64,000 nucleotides of DNA from Alphaproteobacteria bacterium (lineage in GTDB: Bacteria; Pseudomonadota; Alphaproteobacteria; UBA8366; Aestuariispiraceae): the NCBI GenBank assembly GCA_030065235.1, contig JASJDC010000002.1:582001-646000 (forward strand), given 5' to 3'. The notes beneath the pieces are model-generated. The model was not told the origin of the DNA. It was given only the letters and a program-made list of their open reading frames with translations, and made no database searches. The position numbers and the translations under genes are program-made. Below are positions 23,556-30,945 of the stretch, in pieces; the stretch's first letter is position 1, and each line of letters starts with the position of its first letter.

Positions 23556-24731
23556 CTATGTGTCGGCTTCTGGACCGTCGATCGGCAGATTGACCGTGAA
23601 GACGCGGCGGACGAGGTCGGTGCGGTCATGGCAGTCGGTCTTGGCCAGGATCGATTTGATCTGCTGACGGGTGGCGCCGAGACTGACCGATCGATGGTCT
23701 GCGATCTCGTTGGTGCGCAGCCCGTCCATCAGCAGCGTCAGAATTTCCGACTCCGCTGGCGTCAGCCCATAGAGCGCCGCCATGCCGGTGAGATTCAAAT
23801 GCTCTCGCCGATCCGGGTCGACGATCGTCACCCAGGCGCCGCGAAAGGCGCGGTCGATCTCGCCATCCGCGTCGCGCACCGGCGCGATCTCCAAGGCATA
23901 GTGCCCGCCATGAGAGCGTTTCGGGACCTTGAGAAACCGGCCGACAGCAGACCCTTCCTCAGCGGCGGTCGCCGCCACATCGGCCACGGCGCGCTTCATC
24001 TCGGCGTCCAAATGCGCGGCGGTTAGGCGGAGCACACCGTCATAGCCATGATCTACGCCGTCCCGCGCGTCGAAAATCCGTTTGGCGCTGATGTTTGCAT
24101 AGACGATGCCCGCATCGCTCCGAACCAACACATGGCCAATATGCCACCGATCAAGCGCCGCCAGCGCCGCTTGAAAACGCGCACGCAAGACGTTTAACCC
24201 GCGTCCGATTTCAACGGCTTTCGCAAGATGGGGTTCGAAGGATCGCGCCACCGCCCTTTCTGGTCCGGTTATGCCGCCGCGACCGACCACATATTGAAAC
24301 GTCAGTGCGTCAAACCAGGCCTTCTCGTCGTTGAGCTTCACGGCCGCGCGGCAACGGATCCCCATTCGTCGAACGCACCAAAGGGTATCAGGTCGATTGT
24401 TGAAGGCGTCTCGATCCGGCCATAGTATCTCATCAGTCACACAGGTCCCCGCCGGAGAGGCTTTTAACAAGTTCCAACCTTCGGCTTCATAAGTCCAAAA
24501 GTCGCGAACATACTCCGCCATCAGTTCTCTGGGGAAGTTCGTCGTACTCGCGTCTATCGCAAATGGCGTCGCATCCTCGGCGCCGATCGCATAGAGGATA
24601 CACCCTTTAGCCCCAACCTCGGCAGCGATGGGATCCAGTGCACGCGGCCAATTCTCTGGATTAATCGCAGCATCATAGATCGATCCGACAATTTGCGTGC
24701 TTTGCCCGATCAAAGGAGTCGAGCCGTTCAT
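23556..24731 (-). CDS. LuxR-type HTH regulator, tandem copy 1
   Basis: 391 aa with a C-terminal LuxR/NarL-like HTH (LTPAESEILTLLMDGLRTNEIADH, then ATRQQIKSILAKTDCHDRTDLV; about residues 318-382). The central part (about 200-300, DRWHIGHVLVRSDAGIVYANISAKR) resembles a PAS-like sensor. The N terminus (IYDAAINPENWPRALDPIA) is of the kind found in solo LuxR regulators of proteobacteria. No acyl-homoserine-lactone-binding domain is recognisable. The ATG overlaps the stop of the upstream paralogue (ATGA). It ends 12 nt from the convergent pheT. Confidence 0.82.
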   Translation of the reverse strand: MNGSTPLIGQSTQIVGSIYDAAINPENWPRALDPIAAEVGAKGCILYAIGAEDATPFAIDASTTNFPRELMAEYVRDFWTYEAEGWNLLKASPAGTCVTDEILWPDRDAFNNRPDTLWCVRRMGIRCRAAVKLNDEKAWFDALTFQYVVGRGGITGPERAVARSFEPHLAKAVEIGRGLNVLRARFQAALAALDRWHIGHVLVRSDAGIVYANISAKRIFDARDGVDHGYDGVLRLTAAHLDAEMKRAVADVAATAAEEGSAVGRFLKVPKRSHGGHYALEIAPVRDADGEIDRAFRGAWVTIVDPDRREHLNLTGMAALYGLTPAESEILTLLMDGLRTNEIADHRSVSLGATRQQIKSILAKTDCHDRTDLVRRVFTVNLPIDGPEADT

Positions 24732-25891
24732 ACCGATGTATCCGTCGGGTCGATCGGTAGGTTGACGGTGAAGACGCGGCGGACCAGGTCGGTGCGGTCG
24801 TGGCAGTCGGTTTTGGCCAGGATCGATTTGATCTGTTGACGGGTGGCGCCGAGACTGACCGACCGATGGTCGGCTATTTCGTTGGTGCGCAGCCCGTCCA
24901 TCAGCAGCGTCAGCACCTCCGACTCCGCTGGCGTCAGATCATAGAGCGCCGCCATACCGGTCAGATTGAAATGCTCGCGCCGATCCGGATCGACGATCGT
25001 CACCCAGGCCCCGCGAAAGGCGCGGTCAATCTCGCCATCCGCGTCGCGCACCGGCGCGACTTCCAGGGCGTAATCGCCGCCGCCCGAGCGTTTCGGGACC
25101 TTCAGGAAGACACCGGCGGTCGCGCCCGCCTCGTCAGCGGTCGCCGCGACATCGGCGACCGCGCGCTTTAGCCTGTCATCCAAATGCACGAAGGTTGCGC
25201 GCAGGACGCCGTCATGGCCGTTCTCGACGCCATCCCGCGCCTCAAAGATCCGCTTGGCGCTGTCATTCGCGTAGAGGATGCCGCCATCCGCTCGAACCAG
25301 CACATGGCCGACATGCCATCGATCGAGCGCCGCGAGCGCAGCGTGAAAACGCCGGCGCAACACACTTAGGCCCCGGCTGACTTCGATGGCTTTGGCGAGG
25401 TGCGGCTGGTAGAGTTTGGCGACCGTCCTCTCTGCGCGAGTCGCATTGCCGCGGCCAACGGCATACTGAAAAACGATCGCGTCGAACCATGCCTTGTCAT
25501 AGCTGAGTATCATCGCTGTCCGGTTGTAGTAGCCCTTCGTTTGGATCGCCCACAGCACGTCAGGCCGCACGTTGAAAGCGTCCCGATCTGTCCACACCAT
25601 CTCGTCCGTAATAAAGGTCCCGGCTGGCATGTTGAGGTAGGATTTCCACCAATCCCCAACATATTTCTCCCAATCGCGGTAGAGTTTGGCGATGGCGCCG
25701 GCGTCGAACAGCGATGAGTAGGAGACGACCGAGAAGGGCGTCGCGTGTGCGTCGGAAACCGCGAAGATCACGCTGCCCTTCGCGCCGACCTCAACGGCGA
25801 TTGGATCGAGCGCGGCCGACCAATATTCCGGGTTGACCGCTGCGTCGTAGATGGACCCGACAATTGCAGACAGCTTCGATTCACCATCCAT
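24728..25891 (-). CDS. LuxR-type HTH regulator, tandem copy 2
   Basis: 387 aa from the ATG at 25891, which has GGAGG seven bases upstream; an ATG at 25936 in the same frame lacks an SD. Same architecture as the downstream copy. In the last 100 or so residues, from AFRGAWVTIVDPDRREH to the end of the HTH, only about three residues differ between copies, whereas the N-terminal 190 residues have diverged strongly (for example SYSSLFDAGAIAKLY against ASTTNFPRELMAEYV). Different signals feeding one DNA site is a reasonable inference. The pair forms an operon with a 4-nt overlap. Confidence 0.82.
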   Translation of the reverse strand: MDGESKLSAIVGSIYDAAVNPEYWSAALDPIAVEVGAKGSVIFAVSDAHATPFSVVSYSSLFDAGAIAKLYRDWEKYVGDWWKSYLNMPAGTFITDEMVWTDRDAFNVRPDVLWAIQTKGYYNRTAMILSYDKAWFDAIVFQYAVGRGNATRAERTVAKLYQPHLAKAIEVSRGLSVLRRRFHAALAALDRWHVGHVLVRADGGILYANDSAKRIFEARDGVENGHDGVLRATFVHLDDRLKRAVADVAATADEAGATAGVFLKVPKRSGGGDYALEVAPVRDADGEIDRAFRGAWVTIVDPDRREHFNLTGMAALYDLTPAESEVLTLLMDGLRTNEIADHRSVSLGATRQQIKSILAKTDCHDRTDLVRRVFTVNLPIDPTDTSV

Positions 25892-26108
25892 TAGGAAACC
25901 TCCGCCACCGGAGAAAAAGGCTGCATCCTTTTGCATTAAAACCCTACAGGAATTGTCGGTTTGGTTTCAACCGGAGCGGCGCGCGTAGCCTTAAGGCCGC
26001 ATGCGAAAAGATGCATGGCGTCCGGTATCCCCGGCCCGACCAAGCGACTCTGGCGCTTTTACGCCGGAATCGCGTGGGCCGAGCCGGGCCGTCACTCTTG
26101 ATCAGGGG

Positions 26109-26735
26109 TCAAGATGACGGCGGGAGAATTGTGGCGATGTGCTTGCGCTCTTCCGCCAAACCGGAGCCGATATTCACGCGCGAGTAGGCGACCGTTCCGA
26201 CGCCGGGCGCGTAGTAGCTGGTTCTAACCGTCCGTTCGTCGGCGCATACCACCTTGTAGGCGTCATAGCTGCCGCTTGGCACGGTGACATTGCTGGCGGC
26301 CTCCACCGTGCAACGGTGGTTGCGTGTCCAGGTGTTTCCCTTCGAGTTGGCGCCTTTAAGATCGAACCGAACGGTCGATTGCATGGCGAGAGGCCAAATG
26401 GCGCCCTCTTGGGTGATGTCATACGTACCGCTGCCGCCGCCGCAATTCTCCCAGCGCGCCGCGGGCGTGAATGACTCGGCGATCCACCAGCTGCATCCGG
26501 TGGTTTCATTAGTCCAGTTCTCGACGCCATCCGCCCGGCTGAGAAGTACGGTGCGCTGCGTGTCCCCGTCTTGGTTTTGGTACTCGATCACAGTACCCAC
26601 CGGGTGAATGACCTGCGCGACCTCTCCCAGGTCCGCTGTGGCCGGGGTTTCCTCGACCGTTGTCGTCGTTTGACAGGCGGCCAACGCAAGGCCGACCAGG
26701 AGCACGGCTCCCAGTTTCATTTCTTGATTAAACAT
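26109..26735 (-). CDS. Putative lipoprotein, paralogue pair member 1
   Basis: 208 aa. A lipoprotein signal peptide ends at LALAAC with QTTTT following; the mature part has no named family. Features shared with the next gene: TVEETPAT, WTNETTGC, WENCG, ITQ(D/E)G, PSGSYDAYKVVC, YAP(G/E)VGTVAYS and the C-terminal HIATILPPSS. Cysteines are conserved, suggesting disulfides in a periplasmic or outer-membrane-anchored domain. The start at 26735 is set by GGGGAG six bases upstream; the longer frame to 26897 is unlikely. A palindrome shared with the paralogue lies about 160 nt upstream. Confidence 0.75.
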   Translation of the reverse strand: MFNQEMKLGAVLLVGLALAACQTTTTVEETPATADLGEVAQVIHPVGTVIEYQNQDGDTQRTVLLSRADGVENWTNETTGCSWWIAESFTPAARWENCGGGSGTYDITQEGAIWPLAMQSTVRFDLKGANSKGNTWTRNHRCTVEAASNVTVPSGSYDAYKVVCADERTVRTSYYAPGVGTVAYSRVNIGSGLAEERKHIATILPPSS

Positions 26736-27077
26736 GGTGATCTCCCCGATCTGATAACGAACTCTCACTCGAACCGGCGCTCCCTCCCCAGTCGCGATGT
26801 CGCGGGCAACCGTGTTTCCGCCTTTGGCGAGAACGACCGGGTTTTGGTTCGAATGAGTGAAGGCTAGATCGACCAACCAGAACGCCGCATCTACCATTTG
26901 GTATACGGAGAGCGCTTTTTTTTATGATTTGGTTGTGCGTGTTATGACGATGCGCCTCGCGGACGCCGAACCAGAGCGGCCGCTTCCGAAGGGATGACAT
27001 CAATCACCCCATCGGCGCCGCCTCTGGAAGAAACAGCGCGATGGGGCGAGGGACTGGCGCCGCGTCAGCGCTGTAGG
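26736..27077. other. Upstream region of lipoprotein 1
   Basis: 342 nt between the two lipoprotein genes. It holds the palindrome at 26892-26903 and an A/T run at 26915-26925. I saw no ORF with support and no clear -10/-35 pair. Confidence 0.5.
26892..26903. promoter_or_regulatory. TACCA-TT-TGGTA palindrome, copy upstream of lipoprotein 1
   Basis: Perfect 5+2+5 inverted repeat about 160 nt upstream of the lipoprotein start, within the longer conserved block GCATCTACCATTTGGTATA. The same block occurs at a similar distance upstream of the paralogue, so it is either a shared regulator site or part of the duplicated unit. Confidence 0.55.
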
Positions 27078-27713
27078 CTAGGACGACGGCGGGAGGATCG
27101 TGGCGACATGCTTGATGTCATGCTCCATACCCTTGCCGGTTCGGAACCAGGAATAGGCGACTGTTCCGACTTCGGGCGCGTAGAACCAGGTGCGAGCCGA
27201 CGAGCCGCCGACGCAAACGACCTTGTAGGCGTCATAGCTGCCGCTGGGGACCGTTATATTGCTGGCCGCCTGGACTTCGCAGCGGCGTGTGTCCTCCCAA
27301 GTATCGCCGGCCTGATTCGAGCCCGTCAGCTGGTAGGTGGCCTTGGCGCCAAGCGTCAAAGGCCAGAGGGATCCGTCTTGGGTGATTTCTTGAACGCCAT
27401 CTGAAAAATCGCCGCAATTCTCCCAGCTTTGAGCGGCTGTTATCGGGCCGGCGTTTGTCCAACCGCACCCTGTCGTCTCATTGGTCCACCTTTCCAGGCC
27501 GTTTTCCCGGCTCAGAAGCGCCTCACGATCGGTGGCGCCGTCTTTGTTGCGAAAATCTTGAACGGTTCCCACCGGGTATATGACCTTGTCGACCGCGCCC
27601 AATTCCACGGTCGCCGGCGTCTCCTCGACCGTTGTCGTCGTCGTTTGGCACGCGGCCAGAGCCAAACCGGCCAGCAGAACGGCGCACAGCTTGAGTTTGT
27701 TCTTGGACTTGAT
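27078..27713 (-). CDS. Putative lipoprotein, paralogue pair member 2 (start uncertain)
   Basis: About 211 aa. Lipobox LALAAC and mature region clearly homologous to the neighbouring lipoprotein (VEETPAT, WTNETTGCGW, WENCG, PSGSYDAYKVVC, HVATILPPSS). There is no ATG, GTG or TTG close to the signal peptide: the clear SD GGGGAG is followed by ACA, ATC, AAG, so an ATC codon at 27713 is the nearest candidate, with short spacing. The frame stays open to an ATG at 27872, but the residues between are basic and unlike a protein N terminus. It could be expressed weakly from a rare start or be start-crippled. Confidence 0.6.
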   Translation of the reverse strand: MKSKNKLKLCAVLLAGLALAACQTTTTTVEETPATVELGAVDKVIYPVGTVQDFRNKDGATDREALLSRENGLERWTNETTGCGWTNAGPITAAQSWENCGDFSDGVQEITQDGSLWPLTLGAKATYQLTGSNQAGDTWEDTRRCEVQAASNITVPSGSYDAYKVVCVGGSSARTWFYAPEVGTVAYSWFRTGKGMEHDIKHVATILPPSS

Positions 27714-28013
27714 TGTCTCCCCTAATGATGCGCAATACGCGCCTGGACCGGCCGCACACCCCCGGATGCGACTTAGGCGACGATCTGCTCGCCGCCTCCG
27801 TCGCGAGCCGACCAGCCTTCGGTCCAGACAGCGATACGCTATTGCGACCGGACATAGGCGCGCATCTACCATCTGGTATAGAGAGCCGGCGTTTCGGGGC
27901 TATTTACGCCTAGCGGCGATGCGCATCCGGGGGCCGCGGGACCGTTAAGCCTTTTTTGGGCGTCGGCGGTGGGCGTAGGGCGGCGGGTGTTGCTCGAGCC
28001 TATGGGGCCGTCA
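27714..28013. other. Upstream region of lipoprotein 2
   Basis: 300 nt between the second lipoprotein and the XRE regulator 3' end. Contains the second TACCA-N2-TGGTA palindrome (27867-27878). Nothing else recognisable was seen. Confidence 0.5.
27867..27878. promoter_or_regulatory. TACCA-TC-TGGTA palindrome, copy upstream of lipoprotein 2
   Basis: Second copy of the palindrome, inside GCATCTACCATCTGGTATA, about 155 nt upstream of the lipoprotein coding region. The spacer differs by one base from copy 1 while both arms are intact, as expected for a selected dimer-binding site. Confidence 0.55.
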
Positions 28014-28556
28014 CTAAGAAGTATCGGAGCGGGCGTCGGATGTCTCGAGATTTGCGCAGGCGTCGACCAACAACAGAATTTGCGTCCGAACCTTCTTGTT
28101 GCGGATGGCCGCGATCTTTCGCGCCAATCGGATCACGTTCTGTGGCGACAGGGCGTCCTGATCATCGAAGAGCGATTGCGTCTCGACAGAATGTTCGGAA
28201 GGGCGTTCAGCGCGAATGGGCGGCGACTGGATAGGACCGCCATTGACCCGGCGGCCAGCCGATCGGACCGACTTGCCCGCCTTGTCCGGATCAGATGGCG
28301 CGCCGAGAGTCCCGTCCGGCGGGTCAGAGACGCCGTCCTGGGCGGCTTCGGGGAAGAAATAGGGGATCGGCGCGCCCAAAGTCTCACCGATCTCCCAGAG
28401 CCGGCTGCACGCGATCCGGTTCGCAGCCCGCTCGTATTTCTGCAGCTGTTGAAAACTGATGCCGACCCGGTCGGCCAGTTCCTGCTGGCTCATGCCGCGC
28501 GCCGTCCGGTATTCGCGAAGGCGATTGCCGACATACTGGTCGATCTTGTGCGGCAT
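28014..28556 (-). CDS. XRE-family (Cro/C1-type) HTH regulator
   Basis: 180 aa. The N-terminal HTH (about residues 9-65, VGNRLREYRTARGMSQQELADRVG, ISFQQLQKYERAANRI) is of the kind seen in phage-repressor-like and alphaproteobacterial regulators. A Pro/Gly/Ser-rich linker and a C-terminal helix pair (VIRLARKIAAIRNKKVRTQILLLVDA) follow, perhaps for dimerisation. The ATG at 28556 begins the typical MPHKIDQYVGNRL; an in-frame start at 28661 is less likely. It is divergent from the J-like gene, with palindromes and a promoter between them, suggesting that it regulates that gene and itself. Confidence 0.85.
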   Translation of the reverse strand: MPHKIDQYVGNRLREYRTARGMSQQELADRVGISFQQLQKYERAANRIACSRLWEIGETLGAPIPYFFPEAAQDGVSDPPDGTLGAPSDPDKAGKSVRSAGRRVNGGPIQSPPIRAERPSEHSVETQSLFDDQDALSPQNVIRLARKIAAIRNKKVRTQILLLVDACANLETSDARSDTS

Positions 28557-28721
28557 GCGGAGACTTCCCGGCGCTGTTTGAACGCTTCGCGGAACGCCAA
28601 AGGGCCCGGCCGCGTGCGTTGGTGATACACGGTAAAGACACAACGTAGTTTCACAAAACACTATTATATTTTCATAGCCACGCGCCAGCAGTTTCTGCTC
28701 GCAATGCGTGAGGCAGCGAAA

Positions 28722-28733
28722 TTACTCGAGTAA
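28722..28733. promoter_or_regulatory. Palindrome TTACTCGAGTAA
   Basis: Perfect 12-bp palindrome in the XRE/J-like intergenic region, 31 nt from the second palindrome. It is a candidate operator for the adjacent XRE regulator. Confidence 0.45.
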
Positions 28734-28760
28734 GAAGTGTGTTACCTCAACCCGCCAACA

Positions 28761-28788
28761 TTGACTGCATATGCAGTTACAGTATGGT
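28761..28788 (+). promoter_or_regulatory. Promoter overlapped by palindrome ACTGCATATGCAGT
   Basis: TTGACT (28761-28766), a 16-nt spacer and TATGGT (28783-28788) form a plausible sigma-70 promoter reading toward the J-like gene. The perfect 14-bp palindrome ACTGCATATGCAGT (28764-28777) overlaps the -35 element and the spacer, a classic repressor position. Confidence 0.55.
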
Positions 28789-28893
28789 TGAAGAACCTGG
28801 ATCGTTTCTCAAATAAGCGCGCTCGACGCAGAGTGATTTTACTTCTTTAACCTTGTCATACGCAGGCAAATCAAGTTAAGGCGGCATCGAATA

Positions 28894-29685
28894 GTGAACG
28901 GTTCAAGTAACTATGAGGATATACTCTTGGAAGGCTTTGCTCCATCCGCCGCGCGCGACCTGCAGGACCTTGTCGGCCAGAGTGACGCTAAAGCCCCAAC
29001 AGGCGCGGCCGCACCCGAAGCGACAACAGGACCGGCGGCAAAGCCCGCGAACGGCGCCAAGAAAATCTCCTATGCGATTTCCTGTTCGTCCCGCTTCCGG
29101 GACGCGATCCAGACCTTGGCGGATCGCCGGGATGTGAATGTCGGCGATATCGCGCGTTCGGTGATGTTGACCTTACCCGTGGAGGCGATCGACGCAGCGC
29201 CGGATCCGGGCGAACCGGCGGAGGCCGATCGCGAGACGATCTATCTGAAATCCGGACCCAGCGCCGGCAAGCCCTGGCGCCGCAAGCCACGGCTTCAAGT
29301 AAGGCTGCCGGCGGGCTATGCGGCGCAGACAATCCGCAAGGCGTTGGGCGTCGCCCTGGCCTTGGAACGCGGCGACAGTCGGATCAACCTGGAGAATGCG
29401 CTGGCCCCGACTTGGGAAAGTCTGGTCGGCGAGTTGCACGACAAGATCTCGCGGCTTCAGGCGACGGTGACCGCCTTGTCCTTCGATCCGCTGCCGAACG
29501 GCGTACGCAGCCGAGCCGAGGCGCTGCATGTCTTAGGCTTCCCGGGCGACGGGACGCCCGGCGCGCCGGCGATCAAGATCCGGTTTCGGATGCTGGCGGC
29601 GATCCATCATCCGGACAGCGAGTTCGGCGATACCGCGCGCATGTCCCAACTGAACCAGGCGATGGCGCTGCTGAAACATGGTTAG
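28894..29685 (+). CDS. Protein with C-terminal degenerate J-like domain
   Basis: 263 aa from a GTG start at 28894; the upstream SD is weak, so the start is uncertain. The N-terminal third is Ala/Pro-rich; residues about 60-100 (ISYAISCSSRFRDAIQTLADRRDVNVGDIARSVM) look like a helical fold; residues about 135-200 are helical. The C-terminal 55 residues contain a J-domain-like helix-HPD-helix (IKIRFRMLAAIHHPDSEFG, then MSQLNQAMALLKH), so it could recruit an Hsp70. It is not DnaJ: no Gly/Phe or zinc region exists. It is divergent from the XRE regulator. Its role is unknown. Confidence 0.7.
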   Translation: MNGSSNYEDILLEGFAPSAARDLQDLVGQSDAKAPTGAAAPEATTGPAAKPANGAKKISYAISCSSRFRDAIQTLADRRDVNVGDIARSVMLTLPVEAIDAAPDPGEPAEADRETIYLKSGPSAGKPWRRKPRLQVRLPAGYAAQTIRKALGVALALERGDSRINLENALAPTWESLVGELHDKISRLQATVTALSFDPLPNGVRSRAEALHVLGFPGDGTPGAPAIKIRFRMLAAIHHPDSEFGDTARMSQLNQAMALLKHG

Positions 29686-29702: not shown

Positions 29703-29729
29703 GTTATGCATCGGTTATGCGCGCATAAC
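29703..29729. promoter_or_regulatory. Operator-like array upstream of HTH-pheA
   Basis: A perfect 16-bp palindrome GTTATGCGCGCATAAC occupies 29714-29729, and an extra direct half-site GTTATGC lies exactly 11 bp upstream (29703-29709), one helical turn away. It ends directly before the -35 hexamer. The downstream gene itself encodes a DNA-binding domain, so autoregulation is the simplest idea. Confidence 0.65.
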
Positions 29730-29796: not shown

Positions 29797-30945
29797 ATGA
29801 CCCCGCCCCTGAGCGGCCCGACCATCAGCGATCGGATTCGCGCCGCCCGCCGCAATGCAAGCATGACGCAAGCCGCCCTGGCCGACGCGCTGGGCGTCAC
29901 CCAGTCAACCGTCAACCGCTGGGAAAGCGGCCGGCACGACCCGTCTCGCGAGACCGCGCAGCATATCGCCCGTGCGCTCCAAGTCGACCTGAGCTGGCTC
30001 GAGGTCGGGGCCGTGACCGATCCGGAAACGGCGCAAGACGCCCAAGCGATCGCCAATTATGAAAGCCGCGCCGCCTCACGCGCCTTGGAGCGGGATATCG
30101 CGCCCTACATCACGCTGCCCACCGTCGCCTATCAGGGCGTGCCCGGCGCGCATTCGCATCTCGCATGCAAGGCGGTTTTTCCCAACTTCGAACCGTTAAG
30201 CTGCCCCAGTTTCGAAGAGGCCTTCGCCTCGGTGGAAGAAGGCCGCGCCGGCTTGGCGATGATCCCGATTGAGAACTCGCTGGGCGGGCGGGTCGCCGAT
30301 ATCCACCATCTGCTGCCGGAATCCAGCCTGTATATCGTCGGCGAGCATTTCCAGCCGGTGCACCACAACCTGCTCGGCCCGCCCGGCGCCAAGCTCGAAG
30401 GAATTCGCGAGGTCCACAGCCATACGCAAGCCCTGGCGCAATGCCGTGAGACGCTGCGGGAGTTGCGGATCAAACCTGTTGTCGCCGCCGACACCGCCGG
30501 CGCCGCGGCCGAGATCGCGGCCCTGAACGACCCGACCGTCGGCGCGATCGCCTCGACCCTCGCCGCCGAGACCTACGGGCTTGAGGTCTTGCGCAGTCGG
30601 GCCGAGGACCGGATCGGCAATGTCACGCGGTTCGTCATCATGGCGCGCACTCGGATCGAGCCGGACCCGCGCAAAGGCGCCGCGATGACCAGCTTTGTCT
30701 TCAATGTCCGAAGCGTCCCGGCCGCGCTCTATAAATCGCTCGGCGGTTTCGCGACCAACGGCGTGAATATGATCAAGCTCGAAAGCTATATCTCAATCTC
30801 GGATTATGCGACCGCGCGGTTTTATGCGGAGATCGAAGGCCATCCGGCCGAGAAACATGTCGACCGCGCGCTTGAAGAGCTGCAGTTCTTCACGAACAGG
30901 GTGAAAATACTCGGCACATATTCGCAAAGCGCATTTCGATTCTAG
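29797..30945 (+). CDS. pheA: Prephenate dehydratase fused to N-terminal XRE DNA-binding domain
   Basis: 382 aa. Residues about 8-68 form a Cro/C1-type HTH (IRAARRNASMTQAALADALG, VTQSTVNRWESGRHDPS). After a linker, residues about 108-285 are prephenate dehydratase (VAYQGVPGAHSHLA, IPIENSLGGRV, catalytic TRF near 277), which makes phenylpyruvate for Phe synthesis. An ACT domain (about 297-380, LGGFATNGVNMIKLESY) normally binds Phe. The ATG has AGGAG upstream and no ATG/GTG start suited to a stand-alone enzyme was seen at the domain boundary, so the fusion appears genuine. With a palindrome at its own promoter it could be a Phe-sensing autoregulator as well as an enzyme (inference). Its stop overlaps the convergent LysR gene by 4 nt. 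Confidence 0.88.
   Translation: MTPPLSGPTISDRIRAARRNASMTQAALADALGVTQSTVNRWESGRHDPSRETAQHIARALQVDLSWLEVGAVTDPETAQDAQAIANYESRAASRALERDIAPYITLPTVAYQGVPGAHSHLACKAVFPNFEPLSCPSFEEAFASVEEGRAGLAMIPIENSLGGRVADIHHLLPESSLYIVGEHFQPVHHNLLGPPGAKLEGIREVHSHTQALAQCRETLRELRIKPVVAADTAGAAAEIAALNDPTVGAIASTLAAETYGLEVLRSRAEDRIGNVTRFVIMARTRIEPDPRKGAAMTSFVFNVRSVPAALYKSLGGFATNGVNMIKLESYISISDYATARFYAEIEGHPAEKHVDRALEELQFFTNRVKILGTYSQSAFRF

Follow-up and report, generated by a model that had tools for sequence, protein, structure and literature searches.

The palindrome at 28764-28777 is probably the core of a conserved, putative protein-bound operator that precedes the gene of a J-like protein (hereafter J) in the window, the whole stretch of 64,000 nucleotides that was analysed. 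The product of the adjacent XRE gene is probably not the protein that reads this operator; the reader is more probably the J-domain protein or a regulator encoded at a distance. A guess on one palindrome is replaced by a defined, putative 16-bp operator that recurs at promoters of orthologues both within and beyond the window's order, and two proteins can be named as candidate readers. The coordinates of the features are collected in Table 1.

Table 1. Coordinates of the features discussed (window positions, except where a genome and contig are given)
Feature	Position	Strand	Basis or remark
XRE/HTH_3 gene, 180 aa, divergent	28014-28556	-	Pfam HTH_3 2.2e-12; not conserved with the operator
Divergent gap between the XRE gene and the J-like gene	28557-28893		divergent, AT-rich
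First palindrome, TTACTCGAGTAA	28722-28733	no strand	no sign of function
Extra left half-motif, GCCAACATT, directly before the operator	28754-28762	+	third best in 64 kb with the left-half matrix
Candidate promoter of the J-like gene, TTGACT-N16-TATGGT	28761-28788	+	overlapped by the putative operator
Putative operator, GACTGCATATGCAGTT, 16-bp form of AACTDC-N4-GHAGTT	28763-28778	no strand	de-novo motif and matrix ranks; contains the palindrome 28764-28777
J-like gene, 263 aa, GTG start	28894-29685	+	RHH-like N-terminal module, coiled coil, C-terminal J domain
Predicted ribbon-helix-helix pseudo-dimer, codons 57-159	29062-29370	+	AlphaFold2, VIA
J domain, codons 201-263, HPD at 239-241	29494-29682	+	HPD, Pfam DnaJ, fold match
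XRE240, HTH_3 gene, 234 aa, intact	G000:C1:418453-419157		HTH_3 domain

Two palindromes in the divergent gap

Both palindromes of the gap, TTACTCGAGTAA (28722-28733) and ACTGCATATGCAGT (28764-28777), lie exactly where a sequence-only reading of this DNA had placed them, as does the promoter-like pair TTGACT (28761-28766)-N16-TATGGT (28783-28788). That reading had also called the divergent region AT-richer, which agrees with a GC content of 0.49 in the gap compared with 0.644 for the whole window; a value this low is reached by only 2 of 1274 segments of 337 bp, the size of the gap. The promoter-like pair is a 9/12 match and the sole one found, shuffled sequences give 0.6 (sd 0.8), and TTGACT-N16-TATGGT by itself is not above chance. 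Neither palindrome is remarkable as a palindrome alone because the window is rich in such elements: its 64 kb contain 63 perfect palindromes whose arms are 6 or longer, where 25.1 would be expected, and for arms of 7 or longer the figures are 21 and 6.8. With up to two mismatches allowed, ACTGCATATGCAGT occurs once in the window compared with an expectation of 0.03, and TTACTCGAGTAA occurs once compared with 0.51.

A comparison with homologous regions separates the two palindromes: ACTGCATATGCAGT is one instance of a motif that is kept at the J promoters of relatives, whereas TTACTCGAGTAA is found in only 4 of 108 loci, all of which are copies of the window region, and is absent from the relatives compared. 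With this distribution and a frequency as expected by chance, TTACTCGAGTAA was rejected as a conserved site, and it looks like chance. The earlier proposal of dimeric-regulator sites at the J promoter therefore holds for the second palindrome, where conservation argues for such an operator, and falls for the first. Further operator-like half-sites are present on the XRE side of the gap (AACGTAGTT at 28642-28650 and AGCAGTTTCTG at 28687-28697), and therefore the regulator that reads the operator might act at the XRE promoter as well.

A conserved, putative operator at J promoters

The J upstream regions were taken from the window's family and from further genomes, which include Magnetospirillum, Paramagnetospirillum, Telmatospirillum, Terasakiella and many MAGs. 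Two copies (L001 and L003), one locus that is not an orthologue (L015) and seven near-duplicates (L012, L018, L021, L022, L053, L056 and L058) were left out before the motif count. In the 58 non-redundant regions, with the window excluded, de-novo motif discovery yields A.CaACaTTtGtAGTTGACG with a log-likelihood of 420.8, compared with 89-95 for eight shuffled sets. The 3' part of this motif is the -35 element TTGAC, which in many relatives overlaps the right end of the operator, not its left, and by our reading a TATTCG-like -10 element follows approximately 17 bases after TTGAC in many loci. The best motif scores are bimodal, with 42 of 59 loci at 8.6 or above and 17 of 59 at 0.1 or below, and the best position in the window is the palindrome 28764-28777.

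A palindromic matrix was built from 32 loci that lie outside the window's order; with it, the window palindrome has the highest score of 63,985 positions, 17.5 versus 12.3 for the runner-up. With the strictest one-strand matrix, which was trained without the window's own order, the window site scores 3.7, a value that is reached by 29 of 300 shuffles and is not significant, and the L008 site is reached by 83 of 300 shuffles; the asymmetric form of the motif alone is not convincing for the window site. Exact arms, ACTGC-N4-GCAGT, are present at the J promoters of G019, G021, G022, G023, G024, G034, G035, G036 and G038, and ACTDCNNNNGHAGT has only 5 sites in the 4.18 Mb genome compared with 63 for its reversed control. 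Additionally, a second copy of the motif's left half, the 10-mer GCCAACATTG (28754-28763), lies just left of the operator; in several loci of the Magnetospirillum type, the J operator begins with this 10-mer. The operator is two-fold symmetric with a fixed geometry, is common to unlinked orthologous promoter regions and overlaps a -35-like element at J.

An origin of the palindrome by chance, or as an RNA hairpin or terminator, would suit the many palindromes in this GC-rich DNA and the several sites that closely follow stop codons, but the conservation of the operator across relatives argues against it. In an RNA stem, positions 5 and 12 would often be unpaired (e.g., AACTTC with GCAGTT or GTAGTT), and the region 28400-29000 matches no Rfam family at E ≤ 1, in view of which an RNA element was rejected. 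Chance or a hairpin is the most improbable of all the explanations weighed here.

In 9 of the 17 motif-negative loci (L006, L007, L038, L042, L055, L062, L065, L068 and L069), a long same-strand frame ends within 70 nt of the residue-57 codon, and J probably has no promoter of its own there; in the 42 motif-positive loci, no such upstream frame ends closer than 87 nt. The operator is absent from six loci in which J lies close behind an upstream gene (L038, L042, L055, L062, L068 and L069), and where J closely follows another gene, as also in G006 and G007, it has not moved to the front of the operon. The strict TTGAC form was found in 1 of the 12 motif-negative genomes searched.

The strict pattern ACNWTNGHAGTTGAC, which was written after the J upstream regions had been viewed, so that its hits at J are partly by construction but its rarity elsewhere is not, has 33 matches in the genomes of 31 relatives, compared with 5 for the reversed control. 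Twenty-five of these matches are directly upstream of J (in 25 genomes) and 8 are elsewhere. Three of the 31 genomes coincide with G014-G016 of the window's own order, and without these duplicates, 28 matches in 28 genomes are left, 22 of which are at J; location outside the order was judged from the J coordinates, as these genomes carry no group names. For the own order, 16 matches to the first strict pattern are listed, including 3 at J.

The pattern AACTDCNNNNGHAGTT is not enriched over the 43 genomes of the own order, with 104 sites compared with 208 for the reversed control, and the following figures by gene rest on the 75 sites that are listed. Eleven of these are within 400 bp upstream of J (10 genomes), 10 precede the HTH_3 gene XRE240 (10 genomes), 6 lie between ubiB and coaBC (5 genomes), 2 are at the start of dut beside coaBC, 6 adjoin a quinone-oxidoreductase gene and 2 precede flagellin-like genes. 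At least 10 other listed sites fall inside predicted coding frames or in unrelated gaps. The surroundings were read for 16 + 14 sites, 3 of G000 and 7 at XRE240, the 11 J sites were placed by coordinates, and gene names are readings of the translations unless a Pfam result is given. The notion that use of the operator is confined to the J promoter was dropped because of the recurrent sites at XRE240 and coaBC.

The sites in the convergent gap between rho and the quinone-oxidoreductase gene (L141, L142, L143, L126 and L119 in G014, G015, G016, G023 and G024, respectively) do not look like promoters. In G021 (L125), where only the oxidoreductase side is covered, the operator is next to the oxidoreductase gene. 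Recurrence of the J-type operator in this gap might reflect a small RNA or a structural role. In two genomes of the window's family, the operator palindrome is also found approximately 150-200 bp before flagellin-like genes (G000:C13:66137-66152 and G004:C1:1806441-1806456).

The J-like protein and related systems

The J-like protein joins a J domain to an N-terminal module that, as a reasoned prediction from the modelled structure, is a ribbon-helix-helix (RHH) pseudo-dimer. AlphaFold2 places strands at residues 57-63 and 133-139 and helices at 66-79, 83-93 and 144-159, with a pLDDT of 92.5 (E3-9, H12-24, H29-39 ... E79-85, H90-105 in the numbering of the N-terminal piece). Residues 57-159 are highly conserved, and Q135 and R137, which are invariant, alternate with the near-invariant R133 on the second strand of the module. 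The top five matches in VIA are chains of the F plasmid relaxosome, with a best Z of 5.6, an rmsd of 3.4 and 84 aligned residues, a weak match (Z < 8); from chain length and number, we infer that these chains are TraY. A VIA list that does not name a family leaves that family possible. Foldseek returned no hit with E < 0.001 for the N-terminal module, a Pfam scan of 45 N-terminal pieces returned no RHH family, and none of the 8 matches (E ≤ 10) from a profile search of PDB sequences is an RHH protein; an NCBIfam search of the J-like protein gave nothing useful.

The C-terminal 63 residues are a J domain. H239, P240 and D241 are invariant in 45 of 45 proteins and lie between the helices H224-238 and H247-262, and residues 198-263 superimpose on Tim14 (2guz_A) with a Z of 9.1, an rmsd of 2.0 and 63 aligned residues, which corresponds to the J-domain fold. 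Pfam DnaJ matches all 45 aligned proteins at E ≤ 1 (best 7.6e-7), and the J-like protein of the window scores 14.7, below the cut-off of 27.8. The C-terminal J fold and the invariant HPD are shared with J-domain proteins (DnaJ/Hsp40); unlike these, the J-like protein has a putative DNA-binding module in front of its J domain, which is C-terminal, and its Pfam score is below the cut-off. CbpA is a DNA-binding J-domain protein.

F TraY is described as a monomer whose single chain forms the complete fold of an RHH dimer (PMC12117103), and the F relaxosome structures used for comparison were PDB 9f0x, 9f0y, 9f0z, 9f10 and 9f11. Similar to RHH proteins and F TraY, residues 55-160 of the J-like protein are predicted to form a beta-helix-helix ... 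beta-helix arrangement with alternating polar, conserved strand residues. Unlike F TraY, the J-like protein has no Pfam RHH match, shows a weak fold match and is fused to a J domain, and its gene is chromosomal and lies beside phenylalanine genes.

The nearest thematic parallel in the open-access literature searched is CdbA, where an RHH DNA-binding protein also acts in a pathway with DnaK-type chaperones. CdbA is an RHH protein of the Myxococcus xanthus nucleoid; PilZ-DnaK chaperones are involved in the phenotype of its depletion, and in the same study a J-domain protein was pulled down with CdbS (PMC10313047). In contrast to the J-like protein, these are, in the passages compared, separate proteins linked to c-di-GMP, and no operator of such a kind appears in those passages (PMC10313047).

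Candidate readers of the operator

The sequence-only reading had looked to the adjacent XRE protein as the binder, which is not borne out. Relatives of this protein were sought by tblastn (E ≤ 1e-3) in the flanks of J loci, mostly of 1.5-5 kb, and were found beside J in 7 of 67 J loci with the window's copies excluded, L003 and L016 being the same in sequence; among the operator-bearing, non-redundant J loci, with the window included, the proportion is 4 of 42. Repression of the J promoter by the adjacent XRE would fit its position, its HTH_3 domain and the loci L003/L016, L005 and L008, all of which have a relative by J and the operator. However, L009, L010 and L013 have a relative and no operator, and the protein belongs to a multi-copy family, with 7 matches in G000 versus the 5 occurrences of ACTDCNNNNGHAGT in 4.18 Mb. 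The adjacent XRE was rejected as the main reader because, in the flanks searched, it is not conserved together with the operator, and its action as repressor of J is very unlikely.

The preferred reading is that the J-like protein reads the operator at its own promoter (autoregulation), to which we assign a probability of roughly 0.45 on the basis of sequence comparison and structure prediction. It is favoured because the J-like protein alone, of the two candidates compared, occurs both inside and outside the order. The half-sites AACTDC/GHAGTT are one helical turn apart and overlap the -35 element, where they might be bound by a dimer or by two pseudo-dimeric monomers; as the half-sites overlap the -35 region, a bound dimer would be expected to block RNA polymerase. 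The RHH-like module would bind the operator and hold down the J promoter, and in the window's order, the J-like protein may, less certainly, also repress the XRE240 and coaBC promoters.

Several observations stand against autoregulation. J is present without an operator at its promoter in G001, G006-G013, G028, G031, G041 and G042, and the J proteins of motif-negative genomes, among those listed, keep the N-terminal module. Sites at the XRE240 promoter are present in G017 and G040, incomplete genomes (93% and 84% complete) in neither of which J was found. Additionally, the rho-side sites are unlike promoters, the TraY matches are weak and there is no Pfam RHH match. G003 has coaBC sites and J was not found in it, but this genome decides nothing on J because its contig breaks off 106 bp short of the gene that usually comes after J.

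A somewhat unlikely alternative is that XRE240, a Cro/C1-type HTH_3 protein, reads the operator and has a small regulon made up of its own gene, J and coaBC. Its gene is unlinked to J and adjoins a ratA/COQ10-like gene, in 2 of the 3 loci first read also a cinA-like gene. XRE240 was found in 41 of the 43 genomes of the order, and 24 of these 41 have a palindrome upstream of it, at -159 to -232, that scores at least 10 with the J-promoter matrix, where the background 99th percentile is 8.2. Conversely, with a matrix of the XRE240 sites, 23 of 36 J upstream regions score at least 10 (background 99th percentile 9.2); the threshold of 10 for both counts was set after the scores were known. This matrix also gives the window palindrome the top score among 63,985 positions (21.4 versus 9.5), with the limit that its sites had been selected by means of a matrix in which the window site was included; 9 of the 16 sites had been found by the pattern alone. 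Regulators commonly have a site at their own promoter. Similar to autoregulated Cro/C1-type pairs, the system has a short symmetric operator over the -35 element, and XRE240 carries the operator upstream; unlike such pairs, the adjacent XRE is not a conserved partner and the operator is common to unlinked genes.

What tells against XRE240 is mainly its distribution. A search of 32 genomes outside the order gave no full-length relative; the matches there span at most residues 1-115, and 22 of these 32 genomes carry the strict J operator. Within the order, nine genomes have XRE240 and the operator at J and none at the XRE240 promoter, namely 5 of the 7 f3 genomes (G025, G026, G027, G029 and G030) and G032-G035. 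The upstream region of XRE240 in the window's own genome retains only TTCATTTGTAGTT, with a score of 7.0, and the XRE240 site is far upstream of the start codon.

It is also doubtful, and more so than for XRE240, that the operator is read by another transcription factor, one that occurs both within and beyond the order, with J, XRE240 and coaBC as its targets. The sites that recur at J, at XRE240, at coaBC (in 5 genomes), before flagellin-like genes (in 2) and in the rho gap resemble a small regulon, and neither J nor XRE240 fits every genome. However, 22 of the 28 strict matches outside the order lie at the J promoter, a distribution in favour of a regulator that acts on its own gene. When HTH genes outside the order were considered as readers (30 loci), a motif-like site just upstream was found only at L179 and a hit 690 bp away only at L194.

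Should the operator indeed be read by the J-like protein, this co-chaperone would at the same time act as a sequence-specific repressor, an arrangement of which no description was found in the open-access literature searched. Speculatively, the C-terminal J domain might let DnaK act on the bound protein, which would tie repression to chaperone availability. That the RHH pseudo-dimer, coiled coil and J domain together make a repressor and co-chaperone that DnaK removes or remodels via the HPD is an unlikely proposal, though less so than that of a third factor; if it is true, the promoters of J, XRE240 and coaBC would report free DnaK capacity. HrcA-GroE and HspR-DnaK are chaperone-controlled repressors, and the J-like protein would likewise couple a repressor to a chaperone; unlike in these systems, the co-chaperone domain would be inside the putative DNA-binding protein itself. 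The open-access literature searched contained no paper joining DnaJ, ribbon-helix-helix and Magnetospirillum, and none joining a J-domain protein, a DNA-binding transcriptional repressor, DnaK and autoregulation.

In the product of the gene after J (29797-30945, + strand), residues 14-68 are an XRE-type HTH that is joined to a prephenate dehydratase (Pfam PDT 2.3e-55; PRK11899 above the NCBIfam cut-off), a fusion for which there is apparently no paper in the portion of the open-access literature covered. The fusion is present in 14 of 14 family genomes, in G002 as two aligned pieces in one frame, and lies directly downstream of J in all 13 family genomes in which J was found. A 16-bp perfect palindrome, GTTATGCGCGCATAAC (29714-29729), precedes this gene, and L005 and L008 have a different strong palindrome (TTGTGCA...TGCACAA) at this place, which suggests, from the sequences compared, a separate, fast-changing autoregulatory operator. 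Additionally, two tandem paralogue pairs lie on the minus strand between pheT and the XRE gene, one of LuxR/GerE-type regulators (23556-24731 and 24728-25936) and one of lipoprotein-like proteins (26109-26897 and 27078-27872); several relatives have J directly after pheT.
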